Assembly: GCF_007747655.1 (NCBI RefSeq)
Contig: NZ_CP036274.1
Coordinates: forward strand, 4,030,001-4,094,000
From: Anatilimnocola aggregata
GTDB lineage: Bacteria > Planctomycetota > Planctomycetia > Pirellulales > Pirellulaceae
Length of the DNA stretch: 64,000 nt
Reading direction: 5' to 3'
Positions within the stretch are counted from its first letter, which is position 1. Each line of letters starts with the position of its first letter. Position numbers and translations under genes: made by a program. Shown here piece after piece: positions 3,512 through 42,462 of the stretch. The notes beneath the pieces are model-generated. The model did no database searches. It was not told the origin of the DNA and saw only the letters and a list, made by a program, of their open reading frames with translations.

Positions 3512-4152
3512 GTTCTCACGCGGCAGTGCCCAAAGTTTGCTGTAGAATCTGGATCCTGATTCTGTTTGCGCTAGGTGCTACCTTCGCAGCCAGTGCCGGT
3601 GCAGCGCTCCGGGGTTTAGTAGTTCAGTTTATCAACACCCCCCTTTTGCGTGCATCGCAGTTAAGCTCTTTTGCGACAACGAATTGCGGCCAACTTGGCA
3701 TCTCTGAAATCATCCTATTTGTTGATAAACGTCCGTCGCTCCGCTCGCATCGAGTAGCCATTCACATTGGCACCTCCTCAGGAAACCCGCAACGCGAGCG
3801 AGGAAAGCGAACGGGAGGCACGGAAGCAGATTTCTCTCGTGATTCGTTGGGATGGCGCAGGTTGCGAAATTGAATTCGGTAAATCGAATGATCTGGCAAC
3901 TACGACGGCACTTCACCGCGATCAGCACGCTGGCGTGAATGCTTGCCGCGGCGATTTGGAAATTCCCAGCAACGCCAAGAAACGGTTACTCGCAACGGCA
4001 CGCAGCCTTCCCGCCGCGCGGACACGATCTTGCTACCAGTTTGCCAAAAACAGCTACTCAAATTATATCAACTTAGTTAACAAATGTCAAGCAGATGAAG
4101 GCGATATCTTCGTGACGGCTCTAGCCAAGGTTGCTCGTGGCGAAACGTTGTT
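3512..4152. other. Convergent intergenic region, about 640 bases
   Basis: No supported gene. It holds the 104-bp element at 3627-3730 and, at about 3783-3808, a GC-rich stretch containing CCCGCAACGCGAGCGAGG that resembles a dispersed repeat common in planctomycete genomes. An open frame across 3526-3873 runs through the repeat and has no ribosome site or recognisable product. I treat it as chance. Confidence 0.6.
3627..3730. repeat. 104-bp structured element, copy 1
   Basis: The segment is bounded by an 11-base perfect inverted repeat, GTTTATCAACA at the left and TGTTGATAAAC at the right. It has a second copy of exactly the same length at 42134-42237. The first 30 bases are identical in both copies and the last 20 differ at one base. 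The central 54 bases are only about 60 percent identical without gaps. An internal stem (3660-3665 GTTAAG with 3694-3699 CTTGGC) is preserved in the other copy by different bases. It lies between convergent genes. It could be a non-autonomous mobile element, a small structured RNA or a 3'-end processing signal. Confidence 0.75.
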
Positions 4153-39156: not shown

Positions 39157-39228
39157 AGGCGCAGGTGGGAGTCGAACCCACTTGATGTTGCTCTGCAGGC
39201 AACCGCCTGGCCGTCCAGCCCCCGCGCC
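39157..39228 (-). tRNA. tRNA-Cys (GCA), atypical
   Basis: Acceptor stem GGCGCGG with CTGCGCC (one G-U), anticodon stem GTTGC/GCAAC around loop CTGCAGA, anticodon GCA, T arm with GTTCGAC. CCA is not encoded. Position 8 is G rather than U and the D loop is very short (about 4-6 bases). It is the last gene of the seven-tRNA array in the direction of transcription. Confidence 0.72.
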
Positions 39229-39259
39229 ATGTTTGTGCATTCGTTTGCCACGAAGCAAG

Positions 39260-39333
39260 TGCCCTCGCTGGGAATTGAACCCAAGTCTTCGACCTTCGCA
39301 GGGTCGCGTGCTGATCCGGTACACTTCGAGGAC
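39260..39333 (-). tRNA. tRNA-Arg (GCG), atypical
   Basis: Acceptor GTCCTCG with CGAGGGC, D stem GTGT/GCAC, anticodon stem CGACC/GGTCG around CTGCGAA, anticodon GCG (reads CGC, and CGU by wobble), T arm TTGGG/CCCAG. Position 8 is A in place of U. Bacteria normally read CGN with ACG, so a GCG arginine tRNA is unusual. CCA is not encoded. Confidence 0.72.
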
Positions 39334-39380
39334 AAATCAATTTGTTTCTAGCATTCGATGATCTACTTCGTTCTCCCCAG

Positions 39381-39464
39381 CGGAAGGCATGGGATTTGAA
39401 CCCACAAAACTGACGTCGCGCGGTTTAGCAAACCGGCCCAGCGAACCGTATCTGGCTACCTTCC
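39381..39464 (-). tRNA. tRNA-Ser (GCT), atypical position 8
   Basis: An 84-base class II tRNA: acceptor GGAAGGT with GCCTTCC, discriminator G, D stem CCAG/CTGG, loop TTGCTAA with anticodon GCT, long variable region, T arm GTGGG/CCCAT. Position 8 is A. The outermost anticodon-stem pair is C-C. CCA is not encoded. Confidence 0.78.
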
Positions 39465-39469
39465 TTCAG

Positions 39470-39541
39470 TGGACCTCATGGGAGTCGAACCCATCACACC
39501 GATCTTGCAAGGATCAGTCGCCGCCAACGGCATGGAAGCCC
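39470..39541 (-). tRNA. tRNA-Ala (TGC), atypical
   Basis: Acceptor GGGCTTC with GAGGTCC (two G-U), anticodon loop CTTGCAA with anticodon TGC, T arm GATGGG region with TTCGACT. Position 8 is C and the anticodon stem can extend to seven pairs (ACTGATC/GATCGGT), shifting the usual spacing from the D arm. CCA is not encoded. The identity is from the anticodon only, and the usual alanine G3-U70 determinant is present as G3-T70. Confidence 0.62.
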
Positions 39542-39551
39542 ATTCATCAAG

Positions 39552-39625
39552 TGACCGAGGTGGGAGTCGAACCCACAGGCACGAGGCTCTCGACCTCGCC
39601 GCTGAACCTGTTTGCGTACCCGGCC
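39552..39625 (-). tRNA. tRNA-like gene with GAG anticodon and C33
   Basis: Acceptor GGCCGGG with CTCGGTC, U8 and A9 present, short D stem CGC/GCG, anticodon stem CGAGG/CCTCG, T arm GTGGG/CCCAC. The loop is TCGAGAG, placing GAG at 34-36 and C at the normally invariant U33. GAG would be leucine, but the variable region is only five bases, not the long arm of tRNA-Leu. It may be a degenerate or repurposed tRNA. Confidence 0.58.
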
Positions 39626-39675
39626 AGTTTGTTTCAATGATGGGGCGATCTCTGAACTCCTAACCAATTCCCAAG

Positions 39676-39760
39676 CGGAAGCCGTGAGACTCGAACTCAC
39701 AAGCGGACCAAGCCGCCACCTGTTTTCAAGACAGGCTCCTCATCCGGCCGGATGACTTCC
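39676..39760 (-). tRNA. tRNA-Ser (TGA)
   Basis: An 85-base class II tRNA: acceptor GGAAGTC with GGCTTCC, discriminator G, anticodon stem CCTGT/ACAGG around CTTGAAA, anticodon TGA, long variable arm with stem GCGG/CCGC, T arm GTGAG/CTCAC. The D region is irregular (CATCCGGCCGGATG can fold on itself) and position 8 is A. CCA is not encoded. Confidence 0.8.
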
Positions 39761-39782
39761 GTAGGCGAATAATCAAGGCAAG

Positions 39783-39857
39783 TTCCGGGAGTTGGAATCG
39801 AACCAACGAGCTCCTGGTTCAGAGCCAGGCGTCACTACCAACAGCAACTACCCCGGA
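39783..39857 (-). tRNA. tRNA-Gln (CTG)
   Basis: Acceptor TCCGGGG with TCCCGGA including the U1-A72 pair expected for tRNA-Gln, U8 and A9 present, D stem GTTG/TGAC, anticodon stem CCTGG/CCAGG around CTCTGAA, anticodon CTG, T arm GTTGG/CCAAC. This is the most regular tRNA of the array and the first to be transcribed. CCA is not encoded. Confidence 0.85.
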
Positions 39858-42098: not shown

Positions 42099-42462
42099 AA
42101 GCCTGCCAGTGCGAATTGGCAGAGCGCCGGGAGGTTTATCAACACCCCCCTTTTGCGTGCATCACCGGCAAGTCATGCTGCCGCAACGTTTTGCGTTCAG
42201 TTTGCCAACTCCGAAAACATCCTATTTGTTGATTAACTCAGCGGCATATCCGGTCGCCCTTGGTAACTTTCCACGAATGGCTGGAAAATGACTCCTCGCA
42301 TCAGCACGAAATCGTCCCGCAGTGCATGCGCAGTTCTTCCACCAAGTTGCCAAAACGGTCGGCAGTATTATTGTCATATATTGAGGAGTTGTCAAGTACA
42401 TGGTGATATAGTCTGGAGAAATATCTCGGCGGTTTGGGGTTTGACTGCCGGGGGCCTGAGTA
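42099..42462. other. Convergent intergenic region, about 360 bases
   Basis: It contains the second 104-bp element (42134-42237). The remainder (42238-42462) is locally AT-richer (for example TATTGTCATATATTGAGG near 42370) but shows no gene, terminator or RNA signature I can support. Confidence 0.55.
42134..42237. repeat. 104-bp structured element, copy 2
   Basis: Same length and orientation as 3627-3730. The terminal inverted repeat GTTTATCAACA with TGTTGATTAAC has one mismatch. The first 30 bases equal those of copy 1. The central stem is GGCAAG (42167-42172) with TTTGCC (42201-42206), replacing GTTAAG/CTTGGC of copy 1 by different pairs. An inner CGCAA/TTGCG hairpin around CGTT is better formed here than in copy 1. 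It is again located between convergent genes. Confidence 0.75.

Follow-up and report, generated by a model that had tools for sequence, protein, structure and literature searches.

Introduction

Multicopy small RNA families of bacteria consist of intergenic noncoding genes, each standing alone and driven by sigma70. The REPINs (REP doublets) of Pseudomonas, extragenic sequences with inverted conserved ends, a less conserved spacer and a predicted hairpin, are tied to RAYT transposases (PMC3116915). The Correia repeat enclosed elements of Neisseria number about 100 or more copies and are connected with sigma70 promoters and RNA hairpins (PMC2649163), and GTAG- and CGTC-tagged REPs are reported for Planctomycetes (PMC3733652).

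We analysed a stretch of 64,000 nucleotides (the window, positions 4,030,001-4,094,000) of the Anatilimnocola aggregata genome, a single contig of 9,007,740 bp (9.0 Mb). An earlier note on this DNA had described two intergenic elements with complementary ends. On the sequence evidence, what looked like an ordinary repeat is a constrained family of units that carry promoters, and the evidence favours a large family of untranslated RNA genes over two leftover pieces of jumping DNA.

The family resembles REPINs in being dispersed and extragenic, with two inverted conserved ends, a less conserved spacer and a predicted hairpin. However, the ends of a REPIN are one 16-mer, a single REP sequence present twice in inverted orientation, whereas here only arms of 11 bp are common to the two ends and the adjoining tags differ; the promoter and leader module found outside the arms has no counterpart in the available portion of PMC3116915. 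Correia elements are likewise short, dispersed and intergenic, with inverted repeats and a conserved core, but their promoters lie at the element ends, consist partly of host sequence and are aimed at neighbouring genes (PMC2649163), whereas the present units carry a complete promoter aimed into the core. The tagged REPs also occur in many copies, and copies of the present family with swapped module order (see below) often have TTACGTC or GACGTAA nearby; however, the tagged REPs are palindromes of 20-40 bp (PMC3733652), whereas the main class here has 104 bp plus a promoter, and either heptamer lies within -200 to +100 of only 3/55 main copies. Compared with multicopy small RNA families, a copy number of about 55 and a freely variable leader would be unusual. 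A literature search, limited to open-access sources, returned no report of such a planctomycete family.

Results

Both elements are present, copy 1 at 3627-3730 and copy 2 at 42134-42237 of the window, each 104 bp long and each with the minus strand as predicted transcript strand. Their similarity is as the earlier note had it: 82/104 positions are identical, with 30/30 in the first bases, 19/20 in the last and 33/54 (61%) in the centre, and there are no indels. The terminal 11-mer GTTTATCAACA, allowing up to one mismatch, occurs four times in the window, always within the two elements (0.35 expected; four matches were reached in 0/100 shuffles). In copy 1, the Y module (arm GTTTATCAACA plus tag AATAGGATGATTTC) occupies 3706-3730 and the X module (tag CGCAAAAGGGGGG plus arm TGTTGATAAAC) 3627-3650; in copy 2, the Y module, with the arm variant GTTAATCAACA, is at 42213-42237 and the X module at 42134-42157, all on the minus strand.

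A covariance model made from 36 copies (R1) found 56 places in the genome, 55 of which are full-length cores of the 104-bp type, the remaining short one being a swapped-order copy; blastn with copy 1 as query found 40 places, and a pattern of the exact ends 41 copies (none with the reversed pattern as control). The outcome that the earlier note would have taken as refuting, that only two copies exist, is excluded by the R1 search. The 55 cores are spread round the chromosome in both orientations. The fixed length that had been claimed holds for 45/55 cores, which have exactly 104 bp; it does not hold for the other ten, which have 102-106 bp, five of them differing in the length of a C-run. Three cores (L056-L058) score only 50-74 bits with R1, against 90-129 for the other 52; despite this, their length is kept, their arms are nearly intact and a promoter-like site lies upstream.

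The elements as they had been bounded are incomplete: a further conserved stretch of about 200 bp, with a promoter in it, lies beyond one end. When the flanks were aligned, this conservation was seen in 25 of the first 36 copies; in the remaining 11 a different sequence is inserted at the conserved flank. Read on the opposite strand, the flank presents a TTGACA-N17-TATAAT-like promoter followed by GGCAACCTGGTGG, and the 104-bp core is only the 3' part of a longer conserved unit, a putative transcription unit. In copy 1 the promoter is full consensus (-35 box TTGACA at 4085-4090, -10 box TATAAT at 4062-4067, 17-bp spacer); transcription would start near 4055, and the conserved leader motif GGCAAACTGGTAGC lies at 4032-4045, all on the minus strand. 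Copy 2 has, also on the minus strand, TTGACA at 42390-42395, AATAAT at 42367-42372 with the same 17-bp spacing, a predicted start near 42360 and the leader motif GGCAACTTGGTGG at 42339-42351.

A model of this promoter and leader module (R3), made from 50 of the promoter-bearing units, found 55 genomic sites. As in a small RNA gene family, a promoter of its own stands at the conserved position of nearly every core: an R3 site lies on the expected strand and side of 54/55, separated from the core by 67-1382 bp. L057, the only core lacking one, has TTGACA-18-AATAAA by hexamer scan. That scan (score up to 2.6, within 330 bp) found a promoter on the transcript strand of 49/55 cores against 1/55 on the other strand; the spacing is 17 bp in 48 of these 49 and TTGACA is exact in 44. 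Long gaps between promoter and core contain other repeats, such as the tandem array of L002 (G000:C1 near 8,461,700-8,463,000), where core and promoter module are about 1.38 kb apart and, of the sequence read between them, at least the first 200 bp consist of a 9-base tandem repeat, CAAGACAGT. A second repeat, containing TTAACCGGGCCGCTTGCGGCCGTTGAACTGG, was seen in or beside the units L031, L019, L021, L026 and L028; it looks like an inserted hairpin repeat and in L031 sits inside the leader. Repeats of the type CCCGACGCGTCAGCGAGG occur at 3,800-3,860 of the window and in the flanks of L003, L010, L020 and L029, and sit in the leaders of copies with long gaps between promoter and core.

None of the 55 cores overlaps a gene called by a crude codon-based caller, whereas a core would lie entirely between genes at 13.4% of the start positions in 464 kb. 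Genes were called on both sides of 49 cores; 19 of these lie in convergent gaps, an enrichment (13.8% of such space, p 1.3e-5), 7 in divergent gaps (33.5%, p 0.002) and 23 in tandem gaps. Three cores end 0-17 bp from the end of a convergent gene, which suggests that the unit stops at or just after the core. The 120 proteins encoded beside 104-bp and swapped units share no function among the 25 commonest of 167 Pfam families, the commonest family accounting for 4/120, and no transposase is among these 25. Families found among the neighbours include DUF1501, DUF1552, DUF1553 and DUF1570, which are typical of planctomycetes.

Mean pairwise differences, taken over 50 promoter modules and 45 cores, are 0.032 in the -35 box, 0.299 in the -10 box and 0.194 in the leader motif; 0.057 and 0.066 in the two arms, 0.080 in the X tag and 0.139 in the Y tag; 0.332 in the centre, 0.440 in the promoter spacer and 0.499 in the leader beyond its motif; and 0.524 upstream of the -35 box, 0.612 in the first 10 bases of the 3' flank and 0.72-0.74 further out. 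Six reciprocal nearest pairs give the same picture, with 46/330 centre sites changed against 2/210 in arms and X tag (Fisher p 1.1e-8). The two measures agree with the earlier claim that constraint keeps ends and length while the centre drifts. Since a burst of dead repeats would erode promoter and ends as fast as the spacer, their preservation argues for constraint. Moreover, nearest neighbours differ by a mean of 0.203 in the centre (45 copies); with nearest relatives 20% apart the terminal branches must be long, and, in contrast to decaying MITEs, the copies seem to have stayed under constraint during a long residence. This pattern could also be mimicked by the birth and death of mobile lineages.

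The core is very unlikely to encode protein. Stops occur in all six frames over 31 copies, and the codon-position entropies on the G strand are 0.68, 0.69 and 0.77; one frame of the other strand has a synonymous excess (100 against 68.3 expected, with 14 stops), which we count against a noncoding reading. That the cores are what is left of a coding sequence that has decayed, for instance the beginning of a mobile gene, can be set aside as very improbable: the Y tag has AGG followed by ATG, and a similar frame can be read in several copies, but many copies have in-frame stops, that strand shows no third-position excess and lengths change by 1-2 bases.

The earlier suggestion of selection on structure survives in part. 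Complementarity of the arms holds in every copy, but inside the core no covarying pair was found: RNAalifold recovered nine arm pairs, none covarying, and a helix scan of 45 copies found no covarying helix in the centre. A conserved fold of the full unit was rejected, as RNAalifold on 24 copies gave little pairing beyond the arms on either strand. The fold z of the core is -1.35 on the transcript strand against -2.28 on the other, and that of the whole transcript -0.96 (40 copies). No terminator was identified for the unit, and an Rfam search of six loci at E up to 1 returned one tRNA and otherwise matches far below gathering scores.

A search for the X module CGCAAAAGGGGGG-TGTTGATAAAC with up to three mismatches, which would miss more diverged ends, gave 57 hits in the genome, 47 in 104-bp cores and ten in units of swapped order, in which X comes first and Y (GTTTATCAACA-AATAGGATGATTT) follows about 72 bp later (eight of the ten by pattern, two by eye). 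X and Y remain complementary in the swapped-order copies, and L158 has a compensated change from G-C to A-T. No conserved promoter was found at the ten swapped copies in a 500-bp scan; one of them, B10, carries a leader-like motif. Only one R3 site lacks a 104-bp core; it lies at 8,406,246 and belongs to a hybrid, L191, which reads promoter (TTGACT-N17-TACAAT), leader motif, X, six bases, Y arm, centre-like stretch and second Y, and in which a compensated double change at arm pair 5 pairs X with the first Y arm. Counting L191, 5/11 swapped units have 11-13 of the 13 bases after X able to pair with an arm copy 6-7 bases on, against 6-10/13 in the other six, these being figures without a shuffle control. 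We read the swap as one base-paired motif whose strands are connected the other way round; circularly permuted orders are seen for true RNA structural motifs. In the swapped copies L151-L159, GACGTAA or TTACGTC mostly lies at most about 60 bp from the X module, in either orientation, and often recurs beyond Y.

Conservation in relatives, which the earlier note had proposed as a check, was not established by blastn, R1, the exact-end pattern, R2 or R3. Blastn matched 0/39 other genomes; R1, run on 59 other genomes, matched 0/58 apart from G030, with two weak hits; and the exact-end pattern occurred in 0/198 other genomes of the taxonomic family. The model R2, seeded with 22 sequences from the genome itself and two from G030, gave weak matches in 68/295 other genomes at E up to 0.01. 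We take these relatives as unproven because, at a 400-Mb search space, nhmmer with the genome's own sequences alone placed the best G030 copy at E ~1.5 and one stretch of G044 at 0.018, and because a 25-base pattern derived from the R2 hits had two matches in a collection of genome contigs, against about four expected by a rough estimate. R3 had one match outside the genome, L111 in the same-genus genome G001 (1/39, E 4.4e-4); by eye an inverted repeat lies downstream of it, and by blastn the unit has a single match in G001 and none in the A. aggregata genome. In G030, from another family of the same order, a 95-bp inverted-repeat family numbers at least 16 copies; its centre is similar, and the sequence of its 11-bp inverted ends is different. 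The G030 loci L036, L037 and L090-L103 are a multicopy palindromic repeat with several GGGAATCTATT sites, and at L037 and L100 an ORF that by eye resembles an IS110-type transposase ends just upstream. The exact X-module pattern was absent from collections of genome contigs, where A. aggregata itself may be left out, and of viral contigs, and the unit of L007 had no match in plasmids or phages. In G001, the genes next to the position of copy 1 differ, so that synteny says nothing about this copy.

Discussion

Copy number, promoter coupling, pattern of constraint, intergenic siting and lack of coding are all established from the sequence, and the best reading of them, which we hold with moderate confidence, is that of sigma70-driven noncoding RNAs that form a lineage-specific family and have a stem-closed 3' domain. 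A sigma70-type promoter (TTGACA-N17-TATAAT-like) would fire toward the core. The RNA would start with the conserved promoter-proximal motif GGCAACCTGGTGG, cross a leader variable in length and sequence (67 to 1382 bp) and end in or just after the 104-nt core, in which pairing of the arms GUUUAUCAACA and UGUUGAUAAAC would form a stem and place AAUAGGAUGAUUU and CGCAAAAGGGGGG, both conserved and single-stranded, next to each other, as a surface that a host protein or RNA may bind in trans. The roughly 55 genes would have been born in the lineage by duplication, each copy having since been kept individually. Transcription, the stem in vivo and the partner in trans are inferences. In favour of RNA speak: (i), the coupling to a promoter; (ii), its one-sided orientation; (iii), the pairing kept at arm pair 1, where 6/6 departures preserve the pair (four wobbles and two double changes); and (iv), the compensated changes of L158 and L191. 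Against the RNA reading stand the uncompensated arm changes described below, the weaker fold on the transcript strand, the lack of covariation and of a terminator, the swapped copies without promoter and the lack of a supporting relative.

We also suggest, tentatively, that these genes constitute a novel class of noncoding RNA, in which at least 55 individually conserved sigma70-driven paralogues present AAUAGGAUGAUUU opposite CGCAAAAGGGGGG on a UGUUGAU/AUCAACA stem, exist in circularly permuted form too and change their arms wholesale between species, with L111 in G001 and the 95-bp family of G030 as candidate relatives. Such wholesale change would let relatives escape sequence searches. Provided that the units are transcribed, this bacterium would have about 55 paralogous noncoding RNA genes that neither annotation nor Rfam detects, a family of unusual size, and short intergenic repeats of this sort could be constrained genes rather than parasites. 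The promoter, the leader and the swapped-order copies provide direct, testable handles.

It is possible, if rather unlikely, that the X and Y modules are instead DNA sites for protein binding, each made of GTTWWTCAACA and either of two tags, that form inverted pairs with constant separation and are occupied jointly by a single host protein, the promoter feeding transcription into the complex, for example at a roadblock terminator or a chromosome-organising site. At arm pairs 4-5, 26 cells over the 55 copies break the pair, against one or two departures that keep it, and 27/30 single-arm departures are uncompensated A/T swaps, a pattern that looks more like a DNA site. GTTWWTCAACA occurs six times in 464 kb (0.37 expected), and since every one of these matches belongs to a 104-bp or a swapped unit, the sites occur in pairs; furthermore, the inner spacings of the main and swapped classes, 82 and about 72 bp, differ by about one helical turn. 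Paired sites leave unexplained why a promoter lies on one side and one strand of 54/55 cores, and the complementary arm found 6-7 bp away in several swapped copies and in L191 rather argues that spacing is not the feature that is kept. We know of no protein that binds these sites. DnaA as the binder, with the sites serving for DnaA titration, is unsupported, six box forms having no match in stretches of 12.0, 8.0 and 7.7 kb around the two best DnaA hits.

More doubtful still is a selfish repeat, MITE or REPIN-like, that is non-autonomous and depends for its movement on an enzyme recognising the arms; its ends would seem constrained since only competent lineages spread. Dispersal, intergenic siting, restriction to one lineage, inverted ends and a size of about 100 bp would all fit, as would the lack of an element downstream of the probable G001 orthologue of the left gene of copy 2. 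However, recently moved copies were not found: the long terminal branches speak against recent movement, and the one very close pair, L011/L019 (3/55 centre changes), has its right flank in common. In a MITE the terminal inverted repeats bound the unit, whereas 54/55 units here extend past the arms to a promoter and a leader motif, so the arms are not the boundary. More than one matching flank base, as a target site duplication directly at the 104-bp ends would leave, occurs in 0/36 copies. A transposase sharing the ends, which the earlier note had named as evidence for a plain MITE, was not seen: all X-module hits lie in 104-bp or swapped units and none ends a gene-sized element.

Two minor observations concern other genes. 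Seventeen further matches to the DnaA family model in G000:C1 have an identical score and are presumably IstB-type ATPases of one multicopy IS element. The only Rfam matches of the window are three tRNA genes on the minus strand at 39157-39854, one of them low-scoring.
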